The notes under the pieces: model-generated
What the model saw: the letters and a program-made list of their open reading frames with translations, nothing else
What the model was told of the DNA's origin: nothing
The model's database searches: none
Assembly: GCF_008831285.2 (NCBI RefSeq)
Contig: NC_045146.1
Span: forward strand, 23,577,703-23,641,702
DNA: 64,000 nucleotides
From: Nymphaea colorata
Lineage: Eukaryota; Streptophyta; Magnoliopsida; Nymphaeales; Nymphaeaceae
Direction of reading: 5' to 3'
Translations under genes and position numbers: made by a program
In this document: piece by piece, positions 21,701 to 63,467 of the stretch
Position numbering within the stretch: the stretch's first letter is position 1
How the letters are laid out: every line of letters starts with the position of its first letter

Positions 21701-22894
21701 TTTTTCAGTTCAAGTTGGTATTCCAATGTGATTTTTTTAATGTTACATTAACAGTTATTTGCTTATTTGTTGAAATCTCGTTGTGAAACATTAAGACTTC
21801 CAGTCTCCATATTGTTTAATTTGAACATTATCTTGTCAGTTGAATGTCTTGTCCTAGTTATTACTGTAGTTGGAGAAATTTTGTTTATTCTGCCTTCTTT
21901 TTTTCTTGGTTCTATGTTCTCAGGACCGATAAATGGGCAGAGACTGAACTTGGCACCAAATGGGGAGACAAGTGGGAAGATAAATTTTTTGCTGGCATTG
22001 GTGCAAGGCAAGGAGAGACATGGCATGTGTCACCTAGTGGTGATCGTAAGTTTGTTAATTTGTTCATTAGCTTGGTGTTTAGTTTATGCCTCTAGCATAT
22101 ATTGTTTTTAATGCGGCAATATGGAGATTGGTTCGTGAATTTATGGTCAACAAATTCTTTTCCTCCCTGTAATCAGGGTTCATTGGTTGACTTGAAGGGT
22201 CACTCATGCTTGTTAGCCGCAAATAAATGTCTCAGCTAAATGAATGCAGACTCTCAGTAAGATTTGTTTCAGTGGAATAAAAAAATCGCTAGGCCTCACT
22301 CTGGATTTGGTTTGTTTACACTTTAATGGATGTGGGCAGGATGTTTCTCTCCTTTTTTTCGGTTTGAGTCCACAGGATGCCTGGGTGTAAATTTTTGCTG
22401 GCATTGGTGCAAAGCAAGGAGAGACATGGCATGTCTCACCTAGTGGTGATCGTAAGTTTGTTAATTTGTTCATTAGCTTAGTGTTTAGTTTATGCCTCTA
22501 GCATATATTGTTTTAAGTGCGGCAATATGAAGGTTGGTGCGTGAATTTATGGTCAACATTTTTTTTCCTCCCTGTAATTAGGGTTCACTGGTTGACTCGA
22601 AGGGTCACTCATGCTTGTTAGCCACAAGTAAATGTCTCAGCTAAATGAGTGCAGACTCTCAGTAAGATTTGTTTTAGTGAAATAAAAAAATCGCTAGGCC
22701 TCACCCTGGATTTGGTTTGTTTACACTTTAATGAATGTCGGCAGGATGTTTCTCTCTTTTTCTTTCAGTTTGAGTCCACAGGATGCCTGGGTGTTGGTTC
22801 CAATGCTAATACAGGTGCCCAATTTCCAAAAAAACCTAGCTTGGTATATAAAAGCAGATAGCCAGATAACTAACTAAATCTATATATCTATACA

Positions 22895-35900: not shown

Positions 35901-38900
35901 TATGTAAGAGTTTATGTTTGTCCTGTTTAAGCTTTATGGCCATTAAGTTATTTCAACTTTCAAGACTCCAAGAAGGAAGTCATACAAAATGAGAACTTAT
36001 TTATTTTGATTCCCATTTAAGTACGAGAGTAATTTAAATAGTCAATTTTAATTATTTCTAATAAATTATGCATGTAAAGTGCTTGCTATTTTGTTATTTT
36101 TATGCAATTCCTGTTTCTTCACAGGTTTTTCTCCTATTTTCTTGGGATCTTGTTTTCTTTTCGTATTTGTTCTGTTTTTAATTTTTCTGTTAAAAATTTG
36201 AAGACCTTGCCATCTCTACAACGAAATGCATTAACATATATGACAAATAAATTTCACTATGAAGTATGAACTGAGGAGATGGAGTGCCAATGCTTTTGTT
36301 TTTCAACCTGTAAGGAGATTATAAAAAAATTGAGCTGTGTACTTTGTTCATATGTGTGGGGTATATGTCAAGGTGGAGACATTCTTAAAATAGTTTCTGC
36401 GCATGTTCAGCAATACATACATACATACACACACAATACATACATATATACATATGTACATATATATATACACACACACACAGACATACACAGGCATATA
36501 TGCAAAAACTTATCTTTTGTCTTCATTCATGTGTTCAGACTTCAGAGTGACCTAAGGAGTAATGCCCTATCTCCTTTCGGGGCTCGATTTCGTGAGTCCA
36601 TACTTCTACTACGTTCAGATGGTTCATAGCCTTACTGTAACAATTATTCCATATTATCACTGCTGTGGGGAAAAGGCATCAAAGCTTATGATAACTCACT
36701 TCACTTTGGCTTTATTCATGAGCAACTTTGAATCATCATATTGATCGTTTGTTTGAGGATCGCAACTTCAAGTGCTTAAGGACTAAGGTCACGTCGCATC
36801 AGAGCAAGAACAGCTTAAGCATCAAACCAAAACTAATGCTATTCAAGATGTTATTAATCTCTATTTCCTGGAGCTACATCCAGTCTTATGTCCTCACGTG
36901 CTAATTGCCTATGAACTGTTTAAAGTTGCTGTGGACATTGGTATATAATAAGTGAAATAAGGTGCCAACATGAACTGATTGCTATTGTTTCACTTCATAA
37001 ATGGAATTTGAAATATCTATCTGCAATACAATAGTGCTGGTCCACTGTGACAATACTATCAGCATCCGTTGATGTTAAGTCATACTAAAGATATTAATCT
37101 GCAGATAACTGATGCTGTTGTTGCTGCTCGAATTCTTAATGCTACTCTTGTGGTTCCTAAGCTGGACCAAAAGTCATTCTGGAAGGATGCTAGGTTTGTC
37201 TTCACCTTTATTGTCTATGGAGTCTGGATTAGCTAATTTGCCACTGTTTCAATTTGAGGAATAAAGGAATAAACTAATACCTGTTATTCCTTTCAATTTT
37301 TCAGCAATTTCAGCGACATATTTGATGTTGATTGGTTTATATCTTACCTTGCAAAAGATGTTACAATCATCAAACAGCTCCCCAAGAAAATCAGAAGGTC
37401 CAAGGGGAATCCATATACAATGCGTGTTCCGAGAAAATGCACACCGCGATGTTATCAGAGCCGTGTGTTGCCTGTGCTTCTGAAAAAACATGTAAACTTT
37501 CTTCTTAATTATTTACTTTAGATTGCTGATGCTGTGTCCACTTGTAATTCAATCATTCCTCCACTAATATGATAACACTGATATGAAGGGTTTTTGGTCT
37601 TTATCTGTGCACATTCTCCCTTGCAGTCATTTTACAATGCTTGTTTTTCAATCATTTTTAGAAGGTTTTTGTTTGCAGGAAGATCCCTTTTTCTTTTATA
37701 TCATTGTGAATTCTGATGACTTTAGAGCCTCGTGTCAAACTTGCTTAATTGTTCATTTTGTACATTTTGGTTTATTATGGTTACTAGTGGCTGCAGTTAG
37801 TTATTGCTAATGCAAACACCTTCCCCCACCCAAAAAAAAGCAAAGGGTTCTTTTTGGACATTGCATGCTGACTTTTGCTTTTTTGCTTAATACAGGTAGT
37901 TGAGCTCACCAAGTTTGATTTCAGGCTTGCAAATAAATTAGATACGGATCTGCAAAAGTTGAGATGTAGAGCCAATTACCATGGATTGCGGTTCCCAAAG
38001 TCCATAACCTGGATGGGGCAGAGACTAGTCCACAGAATGAAGGAGAAAAGTGGCCATTTTGTTGCTCTTCATCTCAGGTAAATATCTAGTCATGTGAAGT
38101 TTTCAACTTTTGTTGGTTGTCAAGGACAGGGAGGTCTTCCAATGCGATGTCTGTAACTAATTTTCTGGTAGAAGATATGGTTGATGATAGTGTTCCTAAA
38201 AAACACTTGATTAATGTCCTAAATTGTAACCCATGAAAATGACAGGTTTGAGCCAGACATGCTTGCATTTTCAGGATGCGACTATGGTGGCGGTGAAAAA
38301 GAAAAAAGAGAACTTGGTGCAATACGCAAAAGGTGGAAAACTTTACATGTAAGCTCACAAACTTGATGTGATAAATAGTGTGAGGAGCTTCTCTTGTTTT
38401 AAGTTGTTTGAGATGTACATTTGCAGAAGAACAACCCTGAGAAGGAAAGACGGCATGGAAAGTGTCCTTTGACTCCCGAAGAAGTGGGTCTGATGCTGAG
38501 GGCATTGGGTTTTGGCAGGGATGTATTTCTCTATGTGGCATCCGGGGAAGTATATGGTGGAGAAGAGACATTAGCCCCACTTAAAAAGCTCTTTCCAAAT
38601 TTTTACTCAAAGGAATCTTTAGCCACGAAAGAGGAATTGGCACCTTTCTCTTCATTTTCATCTCGAATGGCTGCACTTGATTACATTGTCTGCGATGAAA
38701 GTGATGTGTTTGTGACAAATAACAATGGCAACATGGCGAAGATGCTGGCTGGACGAAGGTATGGTTGTGATGGTGAAGATAATTGCAGTGTTGTAATTGC
38801 TTTATCTTTTGGTTCATCACCTCTTATTTCTTTTGTTGGTTCTGATGTTTTAGGAGGTATTTTGGACACAAACGCACGATAAGACCAAATGGGAAAAAGC

Positions 38901-41197: not shown

Positions 41198-41428
41198 ATG
41201 GCTCACTTCGCCCAGCACTTCATCTTCAGGCCTCTGACTGTTAATCGCCATCCCTGCTTCTGGTCTTCATCTTCTTCTTCCGAATTTGTTTGCTTCCGTA
41301 GGTTGAAATACTGGAGGGGTTTGGGAATACCACAGAAGGACGGTAGGATACGGTTGGTGGCCCGGGCGGAAGCTACTCCTAATGAGTCGTCACCAAAAGA
41401 TACCAATCCTCCCAATGGGAACATGGTA

Positions 41429-41486
<58 letters not shown>

Positions 41487-44400
41487 CGCATTCATGGTTA
41501 AAAGATGGGCTTTGTAGTGGACGCAGCCTCAAGTTCGCTTGATTCTTATGTGATTGTTTGCTGAACGATTAGTGGTTAGATGGGTGTGAGTCATAAACTA
41601 CGTTTGCTGAACGATTCTTGGACTATCTATCAGCCAGGTATGGTTTTTGGGAGGTGCCATGGTAAAAGATGTCTAGATTAATTTTCTCTTTGTACTTTCT
41701 TTTCTTTTTCTCTTTTTATGTCATTGCGAGGAGAAAATTCCAAACATCTCTGAGAAGTTATGGATGTGGAGGTAGGAACAGTTTGTTGAATGAATTGGTA
41801 TTCATTTCTATATGTCAGGTATCGATTGGACCTGAAGGAAGCTTGAAGACGATTCTCGGAAGAATGGACGTTAGGCGCTGCATTGTGTGTGTATGAGACC
41901 AAGATAAAAAAAAAAACTTGACATTCTTTGAGCGAAATGCAAGTCGGGTTACAGGCGTTTAGTCAAAAGCACTACATAGGGCCTCTGCAGCAGGTGAACA
42001 GAGAGGTCTGTAAAAGGCTTGTAGGTGCATAGGTAGACAAGTTAACTTAGTTGGGTCCTGAAAAAGGATGAAAAGTTCAGATTAGCTTAAAAATTTAAAA
42101 TAACCAAAGACGCATAATAAGTTGTTGATTATGTGAATCCTGATGTTAAGCAACGAGGCTCAACATTCCCGCAAAAATAAGCAAGACAAGTTCCGCTTGT
42201 TAGAGCAGCACGGATTTTGCGCAGTCGTTTGGTCGTGCGCACCTGAGTGGAACTTGAGGCTGACTTACTCAAAGAGGTTTTTTTTTGCTATGATTTCTAT
42301 CTTATTACAAAATGGGAGTTTGACAAATTGGCAACTATCCTCTTACAATTTGGGAGTTTATATTGGAAGAGAGGACATCTCACTGGCTCATTGGCATGAG
42401 AGGTGGTTGTTGTTGGGACACGTAGGTAAGAGTCTATATGGAAACCTAACAAGCTTGAAACGTAACCTTGTCCCTCTATATTGAAGGTTGTGAGTTTTTC
42501 TTTCATACTTTAATTGTTTGTATAATCTTTCTGATTGTTCACATCCACAATATAAATTGCTGAAAAATTATTCTGTTTGATTTCTTCTTGCACTTGTACT
42601 TTTACAGTTTACACTCGTTCCTTTTCATTGTGTTTAGCTTGTCATCATAAGACAGATTCTCTGCACCTGCACACTGGATATTCCCACATAATATGCTCCA
42701 CTTGTTTGATATTTAGAGACCTAAAGTTTTCCTTTCCGTTTCTTCAATCAGCCAAAGAGCCGAAGGGATATCCTGTTGGAATATGTTAAAAACGTGCAGC
42801 CAGAATTTATGGAGTTATTTGCAAAAAGAGCATCTCGTCAGGTAACATTCTTTACCTTCTAGATCTGGGTTTATTTACTCATTTTCTCTTGTAAGGATGC
42901 AAGTTTTGAGCCACTTGGGCTTTGGCTGCTAGAAAAACCGTCAGAATTTAAATCTCATGGCCACCATCCTCTGCACAAGCCAAACCAAACATAGGACTTG
43001 GGAGCAGGGGTTCTAGGCCATGGAGTTTTACACCGTTCATTTGTGACTAATTCATTTCCCAGGTGTGGTTTCCTCATGTTAGAAACAAAGAATGGACAAA
43101 TTATTCAAGTTCAACCTTATCAATCAGCCATACAGGCTCATCAAAATTCTTATATAAATAGTTACATGCTTAATGCAGTGTTGTATTATTTCTGCTGGTA
43201 TTAAGAAAATTTAGTTGTCTGCTGAAGGTTGTTGAGGCAATGCGCCAGACAGTGACAAATATGATTGGAAGTCTCCCTCCTCAGTTTTTTGCTGTCACTG
43301 TGACCACTGTAAATATGCTAAACTCTTTTTGGTTTATGCGTTTTCTTTGTTATTTCTATGATGCTAAGCGTATGATTTCAAATCAGGTTGCAGAAAATCT
43401 TGCACAGCTCATGTACAGTGTTATGATGACGGGATACATGTTCAGGAATGCACAGTACCGTTTGGAACTCCAGCAGAGTCTAGAGCAAGTTGCCCTTCCA
43501 GAAGTTCAGTCAAAGAAGGTGGGCATGCTTTCAAAATGTACTTGACTTCTTGTGGGGGACTTTGTACACCAACTGTTTGTAATTTGTACAACATGGTTGC
43601 TTCTGTTACATGAGGATTTAAACTCTAATCAAGTTGACATGTGCACGTTAAATGTATTTTTGTTATGGATGACTTTGAATTTTGGGTGATGACGTTCTGT
43701 GTTGGGGACAGAGCCTTTCCATCATTCCATGTATGCATTTGCAAGATTTACTTTGGAAAGATGAGCAGATTATCAAGATTTTTTGGTTGATGATAATTGC
43801 AGGCTTGACAATGCTTATTTTATTTCCTTTTGGGCTGTTAGAATATGTTGTTATGGGAACCGGGTCCATATCTGGACCCGGTTCTATGGGGCGCGGGTAC
43901 CGAGGCGGGCTCGGTACCCTAGGCGGCTTCTCCTCTCTCCCTCTTTATATTGTCACTTGTGTTTAGTGTTGAAGCAGTGAAATATAATTTTCTCTCTCCT
44001 AGGGTTGCGGTGAGCCCCTAGGTCAGAGCCTCCCCGTGGTTTTTCACCTCTTTCTGAGGTTTTCCACGTAGATTGTGTGTTTGTTCTCCACTCTCTCTCT
44101 CTGTGGTTCGTGTTTCTACATGGTATCAGAGCCAGGTTAGTTGGAGAAGCGTTTTTTCCGAGGATCGTCAAGTTTTTTCGTTGCCCGACGCCGTTGAAGT
44201 TCCGGCGCCGCTGCTGCCCGTTTGACGTCGCCCTGCTCTGCCGCCGCTGTCCTTTGTTCCGCCGCCGCCGTCCTCTGTTCCGGCGCCGCTGCTGCACTTG
44301 TGACGTCGCCCTGTTCCGCCGCCGCCGTCCTCTGTTCCGCCGTCCTCTGTTGCGCCTCCGCGGTCCTCCGTTCGGCCCGTTCTTTGTTTCTGCCACCGTG

Positions 44401-47400
44401 GGTGGCCTCTGTGTTGCGCCGTCGCCTGCTTTCCGTTGCCGCTGCCTCATTCCCGCCGCCGTCGCCGCTGCCTCCTTCCCGTCGCCGTTGCCTCATTCCC
44501 GCTGCTGTGCCTCTTGTTGCTGTGTGCTTGTTTGTGATGGCAGAAGCGATGGGGACTCAAAAAGATGCTGTTCTTGACACGGGCAGCGCCTCCAAGACTG
44601 AGAACGTGCCGCTCCAGGTCACCTCCATCCGTCTGACCAAGGACAATTACCTATCTTGGTCTGCCGCTCTCGAGATTGGGATTACTAGCCGTGGGCGTCT
44701 CTCTTACATCACTGGCGACAAACCTGCGCCCATCAAATCTGATCCTCAATGGGCAACGTGGGCGTTGGAGGACAGCCAAGTGAAGGTGTGGATTATCAGC
44801 TCCGTATCATCCGATATCCAGCCCCTCATTCTGCGGAAGCCGACCTCTTTTGATATGTGGACTGTGCTTGCAAAGATGTATGGTCGCAAGAAGAGACATC
44901 TGCGTACCTATCAGATTAAACGCAGTATTTACTCTCTGACACAGGGTGATTTGTCTGTTGCTGCCTTCTATGCTGCCCTGAAGACCAAATGGGAGGAGCT
45001 AGATTATCATGTGACTGATGAGTGGACGTGCGGTTCAGATCATTCCCTCTACTGGGAAAAGGAATGGATGGACCGTACGTTTCTGTTTCTGGGAGGCCTG
45101 CGGGATGAATTCGAGTCTATTCGTAGCCAGATTCTTAATGGTGATGAGATTCCGGGGATAGAGGAAGTATATGCTCGTGTTGAGTCTGAAGAACAACGTC
45201 GCCAGGTGATGCATCTTGACACCGGTCATGGCCCTTCTGCCTTTGTCAGCCGTGCCTCAGGGACTGGGCAGCGTCCTGCCCGACATTGCACTCATTGCCA
45301 CAAGTTGGGGCATTCGGTGGATTTCTGTTGGGATCTTCATCCCGAGAAGAGACTGGTCAGAGGTCGTCCTCCCTCTGGCAAGCGTAGCCCTACTGTGTCT
45401 GATTCCAGTCAGAGCAATTCTTCTAGTGGTGCAAAGTCCAAGTTGTCTCCTGCTCAACTCAAGGAGCTACAGGCGTACATCAGCCGTCTATCTACTACCC
45501 CTGAGGAGTCCTCCACGTCTGAAGGGGCTCAGCTAGCCCAAGCCCTCATTGCCTCGATTGATCAAGGTAACCCTTCTCTTGGTGATTGGATTGTTGATAG
45601 TGGAGCCACTCACCACATGACAGGGGACTCTAAACTCTTTCAAGAATATCAACTTTCCTCTGGCAAGCAACGCGTGTCTATGGCAGATGGGTCTTCTATC
45701 TCTGTGGCTGGGAAAGGGAGCTTGTCCCTGCTGAACAAATACCATCTCCACAATGCCCTGCATGTTCCAAATATTCCTGTGAACTTACTCTCTGTCAGCA
45801 GTATTACTAAAGAATTAAACTGTAATCTAATTTTCTCTGCTGATCATTGTTCCCTGCAGGACTTGGTGACGGGGAAGAAGATTGGGATTGGTTCGGTTAC
45901 TGATGGGCTCTACAGGCTGCCGGTACAAGTTGCTTCAGCGTTGATTTCTGCCACGAGTGGTCACTTGTCTGGTGTGAATGATAGATCTACTGTTCTGCGA
46001 TGGCACGAGCGTCTTGGACATCTCCCCTTCCAGTTAATAAAGAAGTTGTTTCCTCATTTGTTTGCTTCTGTCTCCATTGACTCCTTCGCTTGTGAAGTGT
46101 GTCAATTGGCTAAACATGTCAGGGCTTCATACCCTATTTCTTTGAATAAATCCACCCATCCGTTTGCCTTAGTTCATTCCGATGTTTGGGGTCCTTCTGG
46201 AGTACCCACGTGTGGTGGTTGTCACTATTTTTTGACGCTTATTGATGATTACTCTAGATGTACGTTCGTGTACTTGTTGCGAGAACGTAGTGAGGTTCCA
46301 GCAGTTGTGAAAAACTTTGTTGCCTTTGTTGAGACTCAATTCCATACTACTGTTCAAGCTTTCCGTACGGATAATGCAAGAGAATATGTCTCCCAATCCC
46401 TTGATGAATTCTTGAAAGGAAAGGGTATTGTTCATGAAACCTCTTGTAGTTATACCCCTCCTCAGAATGGTATAGCTGAACGTAAAAATCGTCATCTATT
46501 GAATGTTACCCGGGCCATTATGTTCCAACGTCATGTCCCGAAGCGGTATTGGGGTGATGCACTTCTCACTAGTGCACATCTCATTAACCGTATGCCTACT
46601 AGAGTGCTGGATGGTCAGTCTCCTTATTCTACCCTGTGGCCTACTCAGAATCCGTGGCCTCTTACTCCTCGTGTCTTTGGGTGCAGTTGTTTTATGCATA
46701 ATCATAGCCCTACTCTCAAAAAACTTGATCCCCGATCTATTAAAGGAGTTTTCTTGGGGTACTCTTCCACTCAGAAGGGGTATAAATGTGTGGATCCCAC
46801 TACTTCCAAAGTATATGTTTCGAGGGATGTCACATTTCATGAACATGAGTCGTATTTTCCGGTGAATACTCTTCAGGGGGAGTGTCTTGGGAACAAAGGG
46901 GAAGAGTATTCCTCTAATCAGCTGATTCAATTTATGGAGTTTTTGGATTACAAGGTTAGTCCCAGTGTGATTGACACGGTCACGGTCAGTAATGAGAAGG
47001 GCAGTCATATGGAAGGGGTCACGGTGGATGCTCAGCCCACTGTTGCCCGGGATCACTTGTTTGGCAAGGTTTATGTCAGAAAGGAGAAAGCTACTGTGGA
47101 AGATGTTGGTGATGAGGATAGAACCAATCCTAATCTTGTGATCTCCCCGGATGACCCAAGTCCATCGAATGAAGAGCTCCCTATTGCTTTGCGCAAAGGC
47201 ACCAGGTCATGTACTTCTCACCCTATTCAGAGATTTGTTTCTTATGCTAAGCTCAGTACAAATTACAAATGTTTTATCACAACCTTATCCAAAGTTGTTA
47301 TTCCCAGGTCGGTGGATGATGCTAAGGATGATCCCAAGTGGTTACATGCTATGACGGAGGAGATGGGTGCGTTAGCTAAGAACAAAACATGGGAAGTTGT

Positions 47401-50400
47401 TGATATCCCTAAAGGGACACACTTAGTTGGCTCTAAGTGGGTTTACAACGTGAAGTACAAACCTGATGGCACTGTAGATCGATATAAAGCTCGTCTGGTT
47501 GCAAAGGGGTTCAGCCAGAAGTATGGGATCGACTATCTTGAGACCTTTGCCCCTGTTGCAAAGTTGAAGACTGTGAGGGTTATTCTTGCTCTTGCTGTGC
47601 ACAAGAAGTGGCGCATGGACCAGCTTGATGTTAAAAATGCGTTCTTGAACGGCCATCTGGAGGAAGAAGTCTATATGAGCATGCCTCCCGGGTATGTTCA
47701 AGAGGGAAAATGTTGTCACCTCAAGAAAGCTTTGTATGGCTTGAAGCAGTCGCCTAGAGCCTGGTTTGAGAGACTAAGGATCGTTATGAAGTCTACTGGG
47801 TACAAGCAAGGAAATGGAGATCATACCCTATTCATAAAGCAGAGAGATGGTCTGGTGAGTCTTCTCCTTGTCTACGTTGATGATATGATTGTCACGGGCA
47901 GTGATGAAGAAGAAAACAGAAAGATGAAAGAGAGATTAGCTAAAGAATTCGACCTCAAGGATCTGGGTAAGCTGAGATACTTTTTGGGGATAGAAATTGC
48001 TCGATCAGAGACAGGGCTGGTTATGAATCAAAGGAAGTACACTCTTGACTTATTAAAGGAGACAGGTAAACTTGGTTGTAGGCCCTATCTTACTCCTATG
48101 GAGTCGGGAACTAAGATAAGTATCAAGACGGGCACCACTCTGGATGAGGAAGGAAAAGGGCGATATCAGAGGCTAGTCGGTAAGCTTATCTATCTTACTC
48201 TAACTCGCCCTGATATCACGTATGCGGTAAATGTGCTAAGTCAATTTATGCATGCTCCAACGGATTGTCATTGGAAGAGTGCAGAACGAGTGTTGGGGTA
48301 TCTAAAGAATGACCCAGGAAAAGGGCTGCTGTATACTCGACAAGACAAACTTACTATTGAGGGCTACTCAGATGCAGATTGGGCAGGTTGCACTGACACA
48401 AGGAGGTCTACTACAGGGTATTGTATCTTTCTTGGAGGTAACCTAGTTGTTTGGAGAAGTAAGAGGCAAGAAGTATGTTCGAGGTCGAGTGCTGAGGCTG
48501 AGTACAGGGCTGTTGCAATGGGGGTTACAGAGATGCTGTGGCTGAAGATTCTTTTGACTGATATTGGTGTGGAACTGGGAGATAAAATGAAGATGTACTG
48601 TGACAACAAGTCTGCGATTAATCTTGCCAATAATCCAGTTCTACATGACAGGACCAAACATGTGGAGATTGACCGTCATTTTATCCGGGAACGCATTGAC
48701 TCAAAGGAGCTGATTCTGCCATATATGAAGTCTGAAGATCAAGTTGCAGACGTCCTAACTAAAGGGCTTTGTACTTCTTCATTTGAAAAGAATGTTAGCA
48801 AGCTTGGCATGTTTGACATGTATGCCAAGCTTGAGGGGGAGTGTTAGAATATGTTGTTATGGGAACCGGGTCCATATCTGGACCCGGTTCTATGGGGCGC
48901 GGGTACCGAGGCAGGCTCGGTACCCTAGGCGGCTTCTCCTCTCTCCCTCTTTATATTGTCACTTGTGTTTAGTGTTGAAGCAGTGAAATATAATTTTCTC
49001 TCTCCTAGGGTTGCGGTGAGCCCCTAGGTCAGAGCCTCCCCGTGGTTTTTCACCTCTTTCTGAGGTTTTCCACGTAGATTGTGTGTTTGTTCTCCACTCT
49101 CTCTCTCTGTGGTTCGTGTTTCTACATGGGCAAATGTATTGTTTGAGGCTTTCCTGCTTATTAGTTATCACATTAGAATTCCTATGTAGCACGCTAGCAA
49201 CCTTTGCTCTAGAGGTGAAGTATCCTTTTACTCTCTGTTTCTACTTTTAAGAACCTCCTGATAGTTTAGCTACTATATATTTAGGTTCTTGGCCCTCTGT
49301 CTCCTTGTGGACATGGTGTTTGGTGCTTGGCTTTTAGCAGGAGTTTGTTTATCTCCAATATGCGATTCATCTCATCTAAAAAATTGAGTTCATATTCGAT
49401 ATGAGATATTGCGAATCTTGCAAAATCTCTTTAAATGTTTCTCTGAATTTTTTGGTTGTATCATCTAATCCCTCTCAAGAACATATTCTTATGCATTGTG
49501 AAACTACCATCTGGAGCCCAAAAACGTGGCTTATGGTTCTTGTCAGTCAGTCACCTTCAACCATGAGTAAGAATTTCTGCCAAATTGATCTGACTAGACT
49601 AGCAGGTGGTGTCCTTGAGGCAGCAGTTCCAAAACTTCTGCTGACTTCCTTGTCCCTGCGTGAAAGTGTCTCTTTCTTTGCCGCCACTTAACTATGAACA
49701 TGTTAACAACCAAAAGAGCTTATTAATCATTGTCTGTTGGCTTTGTGGTAACTGCCTGGTTTTTATCTCTGTCAAAATAGTTTGTTGGCTTTGCTTCCAA
49801 CCACGTTGCTATGTTGAAAGAATTATAAAAGAAAAAACGAATATTTTGTATATCATTCTGTGATAATGGAATTCCGTTTATTTTTCTTCCAAATATACAG
49901 GATGCACCAGATTATGCACCTGGTACACAGAAAAATGTGACTGGTGAAGTCATCAGGTGGAACAATGTTTCTGGGCCAGAGAGAATGGATGCTGTAAAGT
50001 ACATTGAACTGCTAGAAGCTGAAATCGAGGAGCTATCACGCCAAGTAGAACGCAAATCCACAAATGGGGAGAATGAACTTTTGGCATATCTCAAATCTCT
50101 TCAACCTCAAAACTTGCAGGTATCTTTCAAAAATTTATGAGTATAAACTATCTGATTCTTTCTTCCTAGATTAACTGAAAAGTATACATGAAAATTATTC
50201 TTTGTAAGTTGGTGCTAGTAACCGGATATGGGATATGAATCGGGTCCCATTAGGGCTGATCCAACAATGCTTATAAATAGGTCGAAGGGCCCGAATTAAG
50301 GATCATCACTAGTATTAATCACCTGGCCCTCTGGTGAAGGAGAACCCTAATCGGGGATTAGGGTCAGCATGGGTGAATTTAGAGGCCTTATCGGGTGCCT

Positions 50401-53400
50401 TGCTCTTGTAACCAGCTGTGTTAGCCAGAGGTTAACAGTTGGTTAGTCTCTTACACCCCATTATATAACCCCCCAATGTTAATTATATAACAATGGACAA
50501 AAATAAAATGTTATTTGTACAAAAATCCACAAGAATGTGCTTGTTAATATCATGTCCTTCCTTTCCAACTATGTAAAGCACCCACAGAAGTGTTACTAAG
50601 TATTTTGCACGAGAACTCTATCAAAGATCACTGGACAGGTACTGGCTAGAGATAGTATGTGTATAGAGTGTGTGTGCAGTTCTGTTTAATGATTAATCTT
50701 TTGTACCATCTTATTATATTCCTACTTTTTGTCATTGAGATTGGTGTATTTATTCATTCTGCTAGTGACTGATTTCGTTTGCTGGGTAAGCTGAAGATAC
50801 TAGATATCAGAAGCTAAAATTTCAGATTTGCATTTGGTTTTATTAACAAACCAAGTCAGAGGAACTGAAATTTGGCTTGCGTCAGTCCATTACTGTCTGC
50901 CTTGTGACGTGATGGAGGACTATGGAAATCTTCCTGGAGCCACACCAAGTTTATAAACAGCACAGGCAAACCTTTAACAGCCAACAGTTGTAGCTTATAT
51001 AAGTGATACCGTAGCTGGAAAACTCTCTGCATTCTATCTATCTATTTAAATTACTACACTTGTATGTTCAGTGCAAATATGAAGAGCTGAAAAAGTGACT
51101 GTGTTCAATCCTAGTCTCAATACATAATGCTACTTCCTTTGATCAAAGGTCTTTGGTTTCATAAATCAATTTATAATCCTTTAGTTCCTTTGTTCAAGGG
51201 TCTTTGGTTTTATACATCAATTTGCTGAATGGGTCTTTTGCATTTCACTAGTTTCAAAGAATTGGGGGCCCTGGAGTATTTTAGCCAATGTTGTAAAAAG
51301 CGTATCATAAGCCGTATCGGTCTGGCTTTAAGATACGCTGTATCGTAAAATATCGTAACGTATCGTAACCGTATCGTTTTTTTTTAAATAATTATAAAAA
51401 TATAAAAAATTCTCAAAAAATAATAAAAAATCAATAAAAATTACCGTTTTCGTACCTCTATCGTGTTGTATCGTAACCGTATCGTAACGTATCGTGCCGT
51501 ATCATAACTGTATCGTTGCCGTATTGTAACCGTATCGTACGATACGGTGCCCGCATCGTAAATGTACGATACAGAGGGTGTATTGTATTGTATTTTACGT
51601 ACGATACGGCTCCGTATCGTACGATACGTACAACACTAATTTTAGCATAGACTAAGAAATTATAGTTTAAAAGTCTGAAGTTGGGGTTTTGAAAAATGTT
51701 GGTCTGACGACCACCAATTGTTCAAGTTCTGCATCAAATAGATCAGTTCCGTTCCATGAACCCTTTCATGTAGGAGGTGACTTGATGAGCTTAGCTGGAA
51801 TGGCTCGATGCCTACAAGAACCTGATATAGGCTTGGGGACAAAGGGCACAGTTATCGTGGCTCATTGAGTGGGTTGGACCACTTTTTGCATAAATTGTCA
51901 CGAGTAGTGTACACTCATATAAGATGGTTTAGATCCGTGGTGTGATGTGGGCTTCTACTAGAAGTATTTGCTTCCATTGCACTGTAATATAAAGGATGGT
52001 TCTTGGTGTCATTCACGTTTGGCAGCAGCCTCATTTTGCCACTCACCGCATCTTTATGGAGATTATAAAGACAGCAAAATCTTGTGTTGCTTATGCCCCT
52101 TAACTTGCATGATATTTTTTGTGGTTAACAAAGGTGAACTATTCAGTACTGATTCTAATGATTCTTTCCATTTCTCATATCAAAATTCTTTTTAACTTGT
52201 TCTTTCGTTACACTTCTACTTTTGGATTATTAGACTATCTTTTCTTTTCTTATAAAGTTGCTATATTGGTGCACTCTCTACTCTTATTGCATGCTTGGGT
52301 GATCCTAGAGCCAGATTAGAAACCTGGTTTTAGCATCAAAACTAGTTTCAAGGCAAGCATGGTTTGATGCCAAAGTCAAATTTCTAATCCGTTTCTAGTT
52401 TTAGTTGTGAACTGGCTATCATCTTGTGCCATTATGCTGATTTGTTATGATACTTATGCTTTCTGTGGCATACATCTGGAGTACTTGATGTATGTTACTG
52501 AATTCTTATACATGCCATATGGCTGCCTCTTATATGACTAGCTTGTGCAGGAACTAGCCAGTGGTGCTGGTGAGGATGTTGTATTTGCAATGAATACATT
52601 CATAAAGCGTCTTCTTGGGGCTTCAGATCCTGAACAAATGAAGGTATGGAATCAGTGTGCCACATTCCTTGCACTTCAGCTGAAAGACACTCCGTCTTTC
52701 TATTCTTCAATTGAAAACGATTGCCTCTCATTAATTTCATAATTGTCATTGTGTGTGAAACATAACTAAGCATATTTGTGCTAGTAGGCGTTTATTGTAG
52801 ATCTGCTATGCCTGTGTTTGTCTGTTTCTTAGAAGGTAATTAGGCTTTTCAAATGTGGAGAGAGAGATGATTTCCCATAATTTGGATCCTTATTGTTTCA
52901 CAATACTTTCATGTCTACAGTTAACATAATCGTGATATGATGCTTATGGGAGTTGGTGGTGAAATTGTTGACCAAAAAGCTTGGATTATTAGCAGGCCTC
53001 CTGTACATAGGAAGCATATAGCCATGGCTGCAGGCTTCTTGTCTGTAAAACTCAATTATTGTCATAGAGGCTAGATACTTTTGCTGTTGGATACAAGTCT
53101 TGATCTTGGCATGGCTGTGATTTTTGAGTTTCCATAATAGCCAAATAGCCAGATTAGGTTTATTAATGAGTTTCTGTTGCAGAGGTAGGTGCATGCGGAT
53201 GTCCAGGCAGGAACTAATTTCGCATTTCCTGTCATTCTGCAGGCAGCAGCGACACAGACTTCAGCTCCGGAGCTTGCAAATTTGCTCTACTGGCTGATGG
53301 TTGTGGGTTACAGCATCCGGAATATTGAGGTGCGGTTTGATATGGAGCGGGTTCTTGGCACTACCCCAAAACTTGCTGAGCTACCGCCTGGTGAGAGCCT

Positions 53401-53404
53401 CTAG
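41198..53404 (+). CDS. DUF760 family protein, probably chloroplast (8 exons)
   Basis: Exons: 41198-41425, 41819-about 41890, 42752-42841, 43228-43308, 43387-43518, 49901-50119, 52551-52643, 53243-53404; all introns phase 0, product about 358 aa. The end of exon 2 is uncertain (donor after TGT at 41890 or after ATT at 41884). The first 60-70 residues are Ser/Arg-rich with few acidic residues, like a plastid transit peptide. Conserved parts: RRDILLEYVKNVQPEFMELF, VVEAMRQTVTNMIGSLPPQFF, AENLAQLMYSVMMTGYMFRN, DAPDYAPGTQKNVTGEVIRW, DAVKYIELLEAEIEEL, ANLLYWLMVVGYSIRN and GTTPKLAELPPGESL. The two GY-RN blocks (MMTGYMFRNAQYR and MVVGYSIRNIEVR) reveal the duplicated DUF760 architecture. The biochemical role is unknown. 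Intron 5 contains a full copia element in the same orientation, and intron 6 an hAT-like MITE. Confidence 0.9.
41432..41486. repeat. (CT)n(GT)n microsatellite just after the DUF760 exon 1 donor
   Basis: About 47 bp of CT repeats followed by GT repeats, starting about 6 nt after the intron 1 GT. Its closeness to the 5' splice site means length changes could affect exon 1 splicing. Confidence 0.9.
43836..44120 (+). repeat. 5' LTR of the copia element
   Basis: 285 bp, TG...CA ends. U3 contains two near-adjacent perfect hairpins: GAACCGGGTCC/GGACCCGGTTC (arms 43857-43867 and 43874-43884) and GGGTACCGAG/CTCGGTACCC (arms 43895-43904 and 43910-43919). A TATA-like TTTATATT lies at 43944-43951, so R probably begins about 25-35 nt further on. 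Confidence 0.95.
43944..43951 (+). promoter_or_regulatory. TATA-like box in copia 5' LTR
   Basis: TTTATATT in a CT-rich context roughly 110 bp into the LTR, the expected position for the element promoter. The same box is present in the 3' LTR (about 48950-48957), where it could drive transcription into downstream DUF760 exons. Confidence 0.5.
44121..44138 (+). other. primer-binding site (initiator tRNA-Met)
   Basis: TGGTATCAGAGCCAGGTT begins at the base after the 5' LTR. TGGTATCAGAGC is the standard copia primer-binding site complementary to the 3' end of initiator tRNA-Met. Confidence 0.93.
44202..44340 (+). repeat. GC-rich direct repeats in the copia 5' leader
   Basis: Two imperfect copies of a unit near 78 bp (from 44202 and from 44280), both starting CCGGCGCCGCTGCTGC and containing GACGTCGCCCTG and CCGCCGTCCTCTGTT. 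A strongly GC-rich CCG/TTCC leader follows up to about 44,500, unlike the rest of the element. It may fold strongly. It is open in the gag-pol frame but has no ATG. Confidence 0.75.
44537..48847 (+). CDS. copia gag-pol polyprotein
   Basis: Single frame of 1436 aa from the first in-frame ATG (44537, context GTGATGGC). Approximate residue positions: gag to about 240; CCHC zinc knuckle C-x2-C-x4-H-x4-C at about 250; aspartic protease DSG at about 353; integrase with H-x-H/C-x2-C zinc region and catalytic D, D, E at about 548, 611 and 646 (contexts HSDVWGP, FRTDNARE, NGIAERKN); RT from about 968 with YVDD at about 1112; RNase H with DADWAGC at about 1279; KHVEIDRHFIRE near 1374. No internal stop or frameshift was seen. 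The last Cys codon and TAG stop fall within the first six bases of the 3' LTR, and the polypurine tract encodes the residues before them. The frame is open further upstream, but only from a non-ATG codon. Confidence 0.95.
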   Translation: MAEAMGTQKDAVLDTGSASKTENVPLQVTSIRLTKDNYLSWSAALEIGITSRGRLSYITGDKPAPIKSDPQWATWALEDSQVKVWIISSVSSDIQPLILRKPTSFDMWTVLAKMYGRKKRHLRTYQIKRSIYSLTQGDLSVAAFYAALKTKWEELDYHVTDEWTCGSDHSLYWEKEWMDRTFLFLGGLRDEFESIRSQILNGDEIPGIEEVYARVESEEQRRQVMHLDTGHGPSAFVSRASGTGQRPARHCTHCHKLGHSVDFCWDLHPEKRLVRGRPPSGKRSPTVSDSSQSNSSSGAKSKLSPAQLKELQAYISRLSTTPEESSTSEGAQLAQALIASIDQGNPSLGDWIVDSGATHHMTGDSKLFQEYQLSSGKQRVSMADGSSISVAGKGSLSLLNKYHLHNALHVPNIPVNLLSVSSITKELNCNLIFSADHCSLQDLVTGKKIGIGSVTDGLYRLPVQVASALISATSGHLSGVNDRSTVLRWHERLGHLPFQLIKKLFPHLFASVSIDSFACEVCQLAKHVRASYPISLNKSTHPFALVHSDVWGPSGVPTCGGCHYFLTLIDDYSRCTFVYLLRERSEVPAVVKNFVAFVETQFHTTVQAFRTDNAREYVSQSLDEFLKGKGIVHETSCSYTPPQNGIAERKNRHLLNVTRAIMFQRHVPKRYWGDALLTSAHLINRMPTRVLDGQSPYSTLWPTQNPWPLTPRVFGCSCFMHNHSPTLKKLDPRSIKGVFLGYSSTQKGYKCVDPTTSKVYVSRDVTFHEHESYFPVNTLQGECLGNKGEEYSSNQLIQFMEFLDYKVSPSVIDTVTVSNEKGSHMEGVTVDAQPTVARDHLFGKVYVRKEKATVEDVGDEDRTNPNLVISPDDPSPSNEELPIALRKGTRSCTSHPIQRFVSYAKLSTNYKCFITTLSKVVIPRSVDDAKDDPKWLHAMTEEMGALAKNKTWEVVDIPKGTHLVGSKWVYNVKYKPDGTVDRYKARLVAKGFSQKYGIDYLETFAPVAKLKTVRVILALAVHKKWRMDQLDVKNAFLNGHLEEEVYMSMPPGYVQEGKCCHLKKALYGLKQSPRAWFERLRIVMKSTGYKQGNGDHTLFIKQRDGLVSLLLVYVDDMIVTGSDEEENRKMKERLAKEFDLKDLGKLRYFLGIEIARSETGLVMNQRKYTLDLLKETGKLGCRPYLTPMESGTKISIKTGTTLDEEGKGRYQRLVGKLIYLTLTRPDITYAVNVLSQFMHAPTDCHWKSAERVLGYLKNDPGKGLLYTRQDKLTIEGYSDADWAGCTDTRRSTTGYCIFLGGNLVVWRSKRQEVCSRSSAEAEYRAVAMGVTEMLWLKILLTDIGVELGDKMKMYCDNKSAINLANNPVLHDRTKHVEIDRHFIRERIDSKELILPYMKSEDQVADVLTKGLCTSSFEKNVSKLGMFDMYAKLEGEC
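48832..48841 (+). other. polypurine tract of the copia element
   Basis: A purine run reading GAGGGGGAG sits directly before the 3' LTR, in the position of the plus-strand DNA primer. It doubles as coding sequence (Glu-Gly-Glu) for the end of gag-pol. Confidence 0.88.
48842..49126 (+). repeat. 3' LTR of the copia element
   Basis: 285 bp, the same ends as the 5' LTR, with a single mismatch seen by eye, in the loop of the second U3 hairpin. The gag-pol stop codon lies in its first six bases. Transcription termination or polyadenylation signals here could truncate DUF760 pre-mRNA. Confidence 0.96.
51286..51638. mobile_element. hAT-like MITE in DUF760 intron 6
   Basis: A 353 bp element flanked by an exact 8 bp direct repeat ATTTTAGC (51278-51285 and 51639-51646), the target duplication size of hAT transposons. 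Its ends, CAATGTTGTA and (reverse complement) TAGTGTTGTA, match at 8 of 10 positions and both fit the hAT terminal consensus YARNG. The interior is unusual: many copies of CGTATCGTAAC/CCGTATCGTA words and self-complementary GTATCGTACGATAC, with an A/T-rich centre at about 51,378-51,450. No coding capacity, so a non-autonomous element. Confidence 0.8.
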
Positions 53405-56690: not shown

Positions 56691-56793
56691 CAGCTTGCTT
56701 TGTACTCCACCGTCGTCACTCTTCTGCAACTATTACGCGCTCTTTTAGAGCGTGACAGAGGGAGAAGGAGGGGTCATCTTTTCCCCTACCACC

Positions 56794-59529
56794 ATGAATC
56801 CCACCCCTTTTCTGCTCTTCCTCCTGCTGCTCGGAACCTCCACAATCAGCAGCGTGGCCGCGTTGGGGTTTAAATGCAGCGGCACCGCTACGAAATGCCA
56901 AGCCTTGGTGGGATACACCCCAAAGAATGCGTCGACTCTCTCCGCCATCGCCTCCCTCTTCGGCCTCAAGTCCCACTCCTCCCTCCTGGGGCCCAACGCC
57001 CTCCCGCTCAACACCTCCAAGCACCACAAGATCACCGCCGGCCAGGCGGTCCGTGTCCCCATCAGCTGCAGCTGCGGCAATGGCAGGGGCTACTCCGACC
57101 GTTCTCCGGTGTACGTCGTGAAGCACGGGGATTTCCTCGACCATATTGCGAGGGACGTGTTCTCCGAGCTCCTGAATTACAGCTCCATCGCGACTGTCAA
57201 TAACATCCCCGACCCCAACCAGATTCAAGGGGGGCAAAAGCTGTGGATCCCGCTCCCTTGCAGCTGCGACCAAGGGGAAACCTTTCCGATTGAACACTAC
57301 GCCCACGTTGTGGCGAAGGGCACGGACCTGACTGGAATCGCCGCCCAGTTCGGGACTACCCAGGCAAAGCTCATGACTCTCAACGACATCTCCGACGCCA
57401 CCACCCTCCAGGCAGGCCAGGTGCTCGACGTGCCCCTCCGAGGTGAGCCCTCTCCTGATCGCCCCTCTCTCCCTTCTTCACGCAGGCGTGCGTATGGTTC
57501 AGTCATTAGTCTGAAACAGGAACGCGATTTTTCGTGAACGAATTTACGATCTTGTCGTTTCGGGCTCCTGCCTTGGTAAGGTTTTTGGGTTGGAGAGCCA
57601 AATTCCCAAAATAGCTTAGTCATTTAGGGCTTGCGCTGGGATGGTAGTAGAACGATTCTCTTTAGAACATATTCTTATATAGTATCATGTTTGTTGAGAA
57701 TGATTTGATACATTTTTTGAGCAACTTTATGTTGATGAGGTTGGCGCATCGTGGTGGTCAACTTTGTTTTGTTACGGTGGGTGGTCGCTTTTAGTTGAAG
57801 CAAATCGTTCGACTATGGATCTTAATCGAGGCAATAACAGAACTTTTTGTTCGTTTATTTCTTGCAGTTTGCTCTTCTGCAATCCAGAACACGTCGTTGG
57901 ACAGTTCTTTGGCAGTGGCTAATGGCAGCTATGCTTTTACTGCTAAGAACTGCGTCCTGTGCAAATGCAGCAGCGCCTCCTGGCAGTAAGTCCTCATCCC
58001 TTCTCCATCTCTGTTTCTTTTATGCTCTCTGCTAAAGCGACTTCAATTTCTCAGGGAATTCCCTACGGATCGCCGCCTGATTCGTTGTTATCCTTTCTTT
58101 TCTGGTGTTGCTGCAGATTAGATTGTGCGCCCAATACCTTAGGCAACTTAACCTGCCCTTCCATGGAGTGCAGCAGCACGGGCATGACCATGGGGAACCG
58201 GTCTACCGTCACCTCCTGTCAAGAAAATGTGTGCTCTTATGCTGGTTACACAAATAACAATACCATCCTGACCACCATGATCTCCCAATCAACTTGCCCT
58301 GTTTCACGTAAGTGCCTCCTTCTTCTTCTTCCTGAAGACGATAAATCTTGGACCTCTTAGTGCATTAGAGGTGATTAAGCCCTTTTCCATGAAAAAAGAT
58401 TAGGGAACCATGCATACTTGGTTGGTGGGTCAGCTGTAAAGCTTGTCGTGCTGGTTTAATCTGTTCTCTTCTTCATATGGTCGACTTCTCCAAGACATAA
58501 ATCTCCAAGTTGAATGATCTTTGAGCAACATCTGGGCAGGCAGGGCCAAAAGACCTCGGCCTCTCAAGAGACCACAGTGTTCATTGATGCCATTACAACT
58601 ACACTTGCTAAGTTCACCAACATATTAGATAAGAAACTGTAAACGCATGTTTAGATAGAGCATTTGATTGCGTCGATCTGCTTAAACAAAAGTATGTTGG
58701 TGATACCATCGTTAGTATTCGCGACGGTGGCTCTTGATATCTAGAATAAGCACGATGCTGAGCAGAAATTTAAAGGGGCGGACCAGATTAGAACTTTGAT
58801 CTTAAGAGCTGCCCTGTAGAACTTTGGATCTACCTCTATCTCTAGGTTGTTGTATAAAGCGTGGCCCAATGCGCCCCCACTTTATTTAGGTCTCACTTGG
58901 TGCTTGATTACTTCAGATTTATGAATGTGATGTGGCGTGCTTTTGTTGACATGGCAAAAGCCTTACATTAAAATTCACTGTGCTCTGATTTTTGTTTCCA
59001 ATGTTTGAACGTGATGTTCTTTTGAGCGATGTGTAGGCTGAGCTCCCACTGATGTTACTTCTTCGAGCCATGTGCTTGTAGGGGCTAAGTGGTTGTTTGC
59101 TCAGCTCGAGTTTTAAAAAATTCTCACCTGTAGTGCGTTGAAACACGTGAAAATTTTAGTATACATTTTTTGGTTTAAACATGAAGAATGTGAATGTGAA
59201 GTTTTATGCACTTGAACATGGAAAAATTATAAGTTTCGCTATTTGTGACAAAATTTGTCGTGCTGGTTTAATCTGTTCTCTTCTTCATATGTTCGAAATG
59301 ATTCATGTTTAGAAACGCATTCTAACAAGTGAAGCTAGTGAGTGGCCTTTAGTAGAAGAAGAGCCATCGCTATTTGTGACAAAATTTGTTGGATCGGTGC
59401 GATGCAGCTGCTTCGTCTCCAAGCGAGAGTTCTCCTGCAAGCGCAGTCATGGGCCGCGTAAAAGGAGCGAGATGGGGTTGGCCATTGATGTTGGGGTTGC
59501 TTGCTTCTGTACTGCTGATCCATGCATGA
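56794..59529 (+). CDS. LysM domain GPI-anchored receptor-like protein (LYM/CEBiP type), copy A
   Basis: Exons 56794-57442, 57868-57985, 58117-58307, 59408-59529; phases agree, 359 aa. Residues 1 to about 23 are a signal peptide (FLLFLLLLG). An N-terminal Cys-rich degenerate LysM-like part (about 28-90) leads to CSC, then LysM at about 106-153 (YVVKHGDFLDHIA...LWIPLPCSC) and a second at about 169-214 (HYAHVVAKGTDLTGIAAQFG...LDVPL). Paired C-x-C motifs separate them, as in the family. A Cys-rich C-terminal region contains CKCSS and CSYAGYTNNNT. The last exon encodes a Ser/Pro-rich segment (PASSPSESSPASA) and a hydrophobic tail, fitting a GPI-anchor signal. Known members bind chitin or peptidoglycan at the plasma membrane and act with LysM receptor kinases in immunity; the ligand here is not predictable. 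An ATG at 56752 is in frame but would push the signal peptide inward. Confidence 0.93.
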
Positions 59530-61970: not shown

Positions 61971-62103
61971 CAGATAAAGAGAAGGAGAGAGAGAGAGATT
62001 TATTCATTTTCAGTATTAAAATTTAAACGCACAAAGCAAAGCTCTGCTCAACCAAAAATTTCTAACTCCGTCACCGCCGTCGTCGATTTCTCTGATAGAC
62101 GCC

Positions 62104-63467
62104 ATGAAAGTACGGACCACCCTCTTCTTCTTTCTGGCGTTGCTGATAACCACGCATCTGAGAGCCGCTGCCCTGGGATTCAAGTGCTCTAGTGCCACCA
62201 CTCACACCTGCCAGTCCATGGTCGGCTACATCGCGTCCACAAACACCACCCTTGCCGCTGTCGCCACCAAGTTCGGCCTCCGCTCCTACGCCGTTCTGCT
62301 CGGCCCAAACTCGCTTCCCCTCAATGCCTCCGGCCACCACCCAGTCGGATCCGGACAGACGGTCCGGGTCCCCATACCCTGCCGCTGCACGGACGGAAGG
62401 GGTTATTCGGATCGGGTCCCAGTGCACACGGTCCAGGACAATGAGTACCTCTACGTGATAGCCACGGAAGTGTTCTCGAGTCTCGTGGACTACCCATCCA
62501 TCGCCGCCGTCAATCGGATTCGGGACCCCAACACGATCCATAACGGGCAGAGGTTGTGGATCCCGCTCCCGTGCAGCTGCGACCCGGTCGGGAAAAAGTT
62601 CCCGGTCATTCATTACGCGCACGTCGTCCTGCCTGGCTCCTCCTTGGACGGCATCGCCGCCCAGTTCGGTGATGATGAGGGCCAGATCATGAAACTGAAC
62701 GGCATTGAGAACCCGAACCTCCTTGCAGCAGGGCAGGTCCTTGACATCCCCCTCAGAGGTGAGTCTGTTTCGGATCCGATCTAACTGGGAACCGTACTTG
62801 TTTGTCCTGAAAATGGATTCCCCTGCAGTTTGTTCCTCTCAGATCCGGAATTCTTCATTGGACAAGTCCTTAGCGGTCGCCGGCGGCAGCTACGCCCTTA
62901 CTGCACATAACTGCGTCCAGTGCAAATGCAGCAATTCTTGGCAGTAATTCCTTTCACTCTTTTTTGAGCTCATCTGTCTTATTCTTGACCATTCCTGCCA
63001 TGGGAAGAAGTGTTTGGTTCAATATTGTTAGAAATTGCCTCGATGTGATCTGAGGTCGGCCGGATTCCATCTGTGTTTAGCTCTTATAGATAATTATAAG
63101 ATCATTCCTCAACGACGCTTAACATCTTTTTATTACTACGAGTTGTCAGGGGAAGAGATTTCATAGGAACGGTTGTCCAAATTTTGGTGGTACAAAAGTT
63201 TGATTCTCTTTTTATTTAAGCAACTTTTTGGTGATTGTAATTCCTAATTTTTGAGGTTGCGTTGTTAAATTTTCAGACTGCAGTGTGAACCAAATCCTGT
63301 GGCGAATATGTCCGCTTGCCCCTCCATGCACTGCAAAGGCACAAACATGGTCATCGGCGACTCTGTCACCGGCACTGGTTGCGGTTCGCCGACTTGTTCA
63401 TACGCCGGTTACACAAATCAGAGCATTCTCACGGCCATCGCCGCCGGACAAACATGTGTACCCGCCG
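62104..63467 (+). CDS. LysM domain GPI-anchored receptor-like protein (LYM/CEBiP type), copy B, 3' end outside the window
   Basis: Exons 62104-62758, 62829-62943, 63277-63467, with the same intron phases (1, 2, 1) as copy A. The predicted part is about 320 aa: signal peptide (residues 1 to about 20, LFFFLALLIT), Cys-rich N-terminal part starting ALGFKCSS, LysM around PVHTVQDNEYLYVIATEVFSS to LWIPLPCSC, second LysM from HYAHVVLPGSSLDGIAAQFG to LDIPL, then CKCSNSW and a Cys-rich region ending CSYAGYTNQS and TCVPA. Copy A has a fourth exon coding the Ser/Pro region and GPI tail; no convincing equivalent lies before base 64000, so the gene probably continues beyond it. Introns 1 and 2 (70 and 333 bp) differ greatly in length from those of copy A (425 and 131 bp), so the duplication is not recent. 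Confidence 0.9.

Follow-up and report, generated by a model that had tools for sequence, protein, structure and literature searches.

A full-length Ty1/copia retrotransposon within intron 4 of a DUF760 gene of Nymphaea colorata

The window, a stretch of 64,000 nucleotides of Nymphaea colorata DNA, contains a plant DUF760 gene model whose intron 4 is 6382 bp long. An earlier note, made from the sequence alone, had proposed a very young copia element at this position. Our analysis identifies a full-length Ty1/copia LTR retrotransposon at window 43836–49126 (5.29 kb), in sense orientation relative to the host gene. The element is almost certainly the product of a recent insertion of a complete copy into intron 4 by ordinary integrase-mediated retrotransposition, as documented by an LTR pair, a target site duplication, a putative primer-binding site and a purine tract where they are expected, a gag-pol frame that is open and carries signature residues, and exons of a single gene model on either side.

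Architecture of the element and its host intron

The features of the element and of the host gene, with their window coordinates, are as follows.

43831–43835, no strand: left copy of the target site duplication TGGGC (read from the sequence)
43836–44120, plus strand: 5′ LTR, 285 bp, TG...CA ends (LTR comparison)
43856–43919, plus strand: two GC-rich hairpins in the 5′ LTR, repeated in the 3′ LTR
44121–44138, plus strand: primer-binding site TGGTATCAGAGCC, presumed complement of the plant initiator tRNA-Met 3′ end
44139–44536, plus strand: leader with GC-rich imperfect tandem repeats (~65% GC, CpG ratio 1.25)
44537–48847, plus strand: gag-pol frame, 1436 codons plus TAG (ORF, Pfam, motifs)
48833–48841, plus strand: polypurine tract GAGGGGGAG, coding (read from the sequence)
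48842–49126, plus strand: 3′ LTR, 285 bp, differing from the 5′ LTR at 48913 only (LTR comparison)
49127–49131, no strand: right copy of the target site duplication TGGGC (read from the sequence)
41198–53404, plus strand: host DUF760 gene model, 330 aa, seven coding exons (frames, splice dinucleotides, Pfam)
41198–41425, 42752–42841, 43228–43308, 43387–43518, 49901–50119, 52551–52643 and 53258–53404, plus strand: host coding exons
43519–49900, plus strand: host intron 4, 6382 bp, containing the element

The direct LTR pair, the TG...CA ends and the TGGGC on each side identify the element as an LTR retrotransposon, with termini and target duplication exact to the base as the earlier note had given them. 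A repeat finder pairs 288 bp rather than 285 bp; the three extra bases are the TGG with which the primer-binding site and the target duplication alike begin. TGGTATCAGAGCC begins at 44121, directly 3′ of the 5′ LTR, and is presumably complementary to the 3′ terminus of the initiator tRNA-Met of plants, in agreement with the primer proposed before. ARAGORN finds no tRNA genes in the window. At the other end, GAGGGGGAG extends up to 48841 and abuts the 3′ LTR, where a polypurine tract is expected and had been described. The LTR contains TATA-like words at bases 111 and 148 and no AATAAA, and the whole window yields no Rfam match at the gathering threshold.

The host gene model is a prediction from open reading frames, the dinucleotides at splice sites and similarity to Pfam DUF760 (E 4.4e-27, with exons 1–5 as the query). 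Consistent with the proposed intronic location, exons of this one model flank the element on both sides, and 6 of 6 introns are GT...AG. Removal of the element and one target duplication leaves an intron 4 of 1086 bp. The gene may resemble AT3G17800 or AT1G48450. In Arabidopsis, four DUF760 proteins are enriched in a chloroplast CLPC1 trap, according to an excerpt of PMC8889267.

Near-identical repeats are prone to misassembly, so that the element could have been misplaced, or its LTR pair polished to near-identity. Against this stand the single base difference between the LTRs, the target duplication present at each junction, and flanks that together form an ordinary intron; such an artefact is extremely improbable.

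Several other features lie in the window. Degenerate short repeats with GTATCGTAAC-type units occupy 51340–51539, within a DUF760 intron that follows intron 4. Upstream of the same gene, at 38412–38882 on the plus strand, lies an exon for an O-fucosyltransferase (O-FucT). Two LysM receptor-type genes (56752–57537 and 62020–62781) match LYK4/5-like Pfam models, share 67% identity over 512 aligned bases, and are probably a tandem pair. Furthermore, two stretches at 577–2731 on the minus strand match consecutive parts of DUF7796, and a 405-bp unit is present at 21981–22794 in two head-to-tail copies that are ~93% alike.

Coding capacity and classification

The gag-pol frame reads from the ATG at 44537 through 1436 codons with no internal stop, as had been claimed for it. 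Its TAG (48845–48847) coincides with bases 4–6 of the 3′ LTR; the polypurine tract is therefore part of the coding sequence, and the LTR supplies the codon for the last residue. When the frame was submitted to Pfam in four pieces, gag_2, gag_3, Pol_BBD, gag_pre-integrs, SH3_retrovirus and RVT_2 scored above the cut-off. The integrase core, rve, was recovered as two halves below the cut-off (21.1 and 24.1 bits vs 32.6), because a boundary between query pieces splits it.

The domains are arranged in the order gag, protease region, integrase, reverse transcriptase and RNase H, the last placed by motif. Integrase precedes reverse transcriptase in pol and the RVT_2 domain is of copia type, the arrangement that identifies Ty1/copia and that bears out the class assigned earlier. 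Specifically, the polyprotein carries CCHC at residues 251–264, DSGA at 354, HHCC at 490–522, D549-D612-E648, YVDD at 1113–1116 and, by eye, the RNase H motifs DADWAG, SSAEAEY and CDNKSA from ~1280. No piece of the frame has a Pfam match to RNase H. Against the PDB, the integrase piece matches best to 7z0h chain W, named 'Integrase' (E 1.6e-15, first among the 30 sequences listed), which is presumably the Ty1 integrase, while the piece spanning reverse transcriptase and RNase H gives two weak matches (E 0.011 and 0.082), neither of them named a reverse transcriptase.

As far as its features were tested, the element conforms to the Ty1/copia superfamily. Excerpts of the REXdb survey report 5-bp target duplications, as in the present element, in 93.4% of the plant Ty1/copia elements surveyed, a complete tRNA-Met primer-binding site, as TGGTATCAGAGCC may represent here, in most copia groups, and five basic domains, of which RNase H is here placed by motif (PMC6317226). 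The putative tRNA-Met primer-binding site speaks against the self-priming TAR lineage and against Bianca, which uses a half tRNA-Ile site (PMC6317226). In SIRE, 74% of elements carry an additional frame downstream of pol and upstream of the 3′ LTR (PMC6317226, excerpt). The present element has none and offers no room for one, since its gag-pol frame runs into the 3′ LTR. Membership of SIRE is unlikely.

Relatives of the element were sought in the window and in two sequence collections. Within the window, comparison with the element gives six alignments of 15–33 bp, all with E 0.99, which we take to be chance, and thus no other copy; four of the six involve one CT-rich LTR stretch of 15 bp that is counted for each of the two LTRs. 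In viral_contigs, the integrase piece gave 10 pattern stretches and the reverse transcriptase piece one, none of which was confirmed as a relative. In genome_contigs, 4 of 24 stretches were confirmed for the reverse transcriptase piece, at 27–43% identity and in records filed as bacterial; these are too distant to inform on family or age. The four loci (L001–L004) carry copia-type RVT_2 and come from two metagenome bins and two Frankia assemblies, with the domain in L004 below the Pfam cut-off. The Frankia loci have 43–44% GC, which is low for Frankia, and short broken frames; the domain in these records is likely host or other eukaryotic contamination.

Age of the insertion

The earlier note had counted a single mismatch between the LTRs, and exact comparison finds one difference in 285 bp, at LTR base 72, which is G in the 5′ LTR and A in the 3′ LTR. 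At assumed rates of 7e-9, 1.3e-8 and 2.6e-8 substitutions per site per year, this corresponds to 0.251, 0.135 and 0.067 My, with 95% Poisson ranges of 0.006–1.40, 0.003–0.75 and 0.002–0.38 My, respectively. The arithmetic behind the proposed age of about 0.1 My is right at 1.3e-8, but this age, like the youth of the element, rests on one base difference. In addition, the difference is a G/A transition at a CpG; such sites usually change faster where DNA is methylated, and the insertion may accordingly be younger than calculated. CpG ratios (0.63 in the element, 0.66 in the remainder of the window, 1.25 in the leader and 0.52 in the frame) give no usable age signal as an independent clock.

The insertion could also be older than it appears, if gene conversion had homogenised the LTRs and the frame had stayed open by chance or selection. 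Conversion between LTRs can hide changes, and potential converted regions were found in 25% of LTR pairs across fifteen plant species, according to an excerpt of PMC7251063; even without conversion, the range at 7e-9 reaches 1.4 My. The open frame offers a second, weak clock. Of the 12,924 possible single-base changes in its 1436 codons, 539 create a stop, and with a ts/tv weight of 4 and indels ignored, the chance of a stop-free frame at 1.3e-8 is 0.78 at 0.135 My, 0.25 at 0.75 My and 0.06 at 1.5 My. These values argue against an old insertion, although the argument is weak at 7e-9, where the chances are 0.87, 0.47 and 0.22. We consider the older date unlikely and retain a recent insertion.

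A recent insertion is compatible with, and not opposed to, the element being intact in sequence yet methylated, inactive and no longer mobile. Most plant LTR elements are methylated and inactive, and the single LTR difference is the CpG transition that methylation would favour. Furthermore, new ONSEN copies in Arabidopsis are efficiently methylated, as stated in an excerpt of PMC12112155. We regard a silenced copy as rather probable.

LTR structure, mobility and the host transcript

Two structures that the earlier note did not describe are present in the 5′ part of the element: a pair of LTR hairpins and a GC-rich repeated leader. Hairpin 1 (43856–43885) has a perfect stem of 12 bp and hairpin 2 (43895–43919) one of 10 bp, and both lie in the upstream part of the LTR, 5′ of the TATA-like words. 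When the LTR was simulated 2000 times with a first-order Markov model, no simulation contained a perfect stem of at least 10 bp with a loop of 3–8, the longest being 9, and the folding of the LTR has a z of −4.63, with 0 of 200 dinucleotide shuffles equally stable. The LTR mismatch sits in the loop of hairpin 2 and leaves the stem unbroken. The hairpins may act as a promoter element or as an RNA structure. An excerpt of PMC8656106 does not describe LTR hairpins of this kind, and we make no claim that they are unpublished. In the leader, imperfect GC-rich tandem repeats with units of ~15–78 bp extend over 44199–44513. The gag-pol frame is open upstream through the leader to a TTG at 44222 (1541 codons) and contains no ATG there; the leader (44139–44536) is presumably untranslated.

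From these features, a course of events can be proposed. Transcription would start from the 5′ LTR, tRNA-Met and the purine tract would serve as primers, and the encoded integrase would make a staggered 5-bp cut. With less certainty, splicing of intron 4 may normally remove the element from the host transcript, and some transcripts may terminate prematurely in the 5′ LTR. A transcript ending there would be translated for 8 codons into intron 4, giving a computed product of 185 residues. The idea of early ending is slightly weakened because the LTR lacks AATAAA.

By their published descriptions, two intronic copia elements resemble the present one. RAC, the Rhg1 alpha-SNAP copia of soybean, is likewise an intact intronic element with both LTRs, judged recent, and its polyprotein is also uninterrupted (1438 residues vs 1436), whereas RAC measures 4.77 kb and lies antisense in intron 1 (PMC6712407, excerpt), as against 5.29 kb and sense orientation in intron 4 here. 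RAC was found in all true rhg1-a haplotypes tested and not in the rhg1-b or single-copy soybeans examined (PMC6712407, excerpt). COPIA-R7 also lies within a host intron, intron 1 of Arabidopsis RPP7; its 5′ LTR is a proven polyadenylation site under the control of EDM2 and H3K9me2, a role that is only a possibility for the present LTR (PMC7529245, excerpt). In Arabidopsis, most new full-length ONSEN copies within genes are spliced out, as stated in an excerpt of PMC12112155.

As the earlier note suggested, the family may still be active and the insertion may be polymorphic within the species. It would be conceivable that both hold and that, in addition, the sense 5′ LTR with its hairpins yields the shortened, 185-residue DUF760 form, in which case gene output would depend on whether the element is present. 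We consider this combination very doubtful. The element is an ordinary, well-preserved member of a known and very common kind, and by itself it does not change general understanding. As a clean full-length copia copy within a gene, it can serve as a marker and is a candidate for a recent source copy of the family. Should the insertion turn out to be polymorphic and to shorten the DUF760 transcript, it would add another intronic copia to those that act on gene output.
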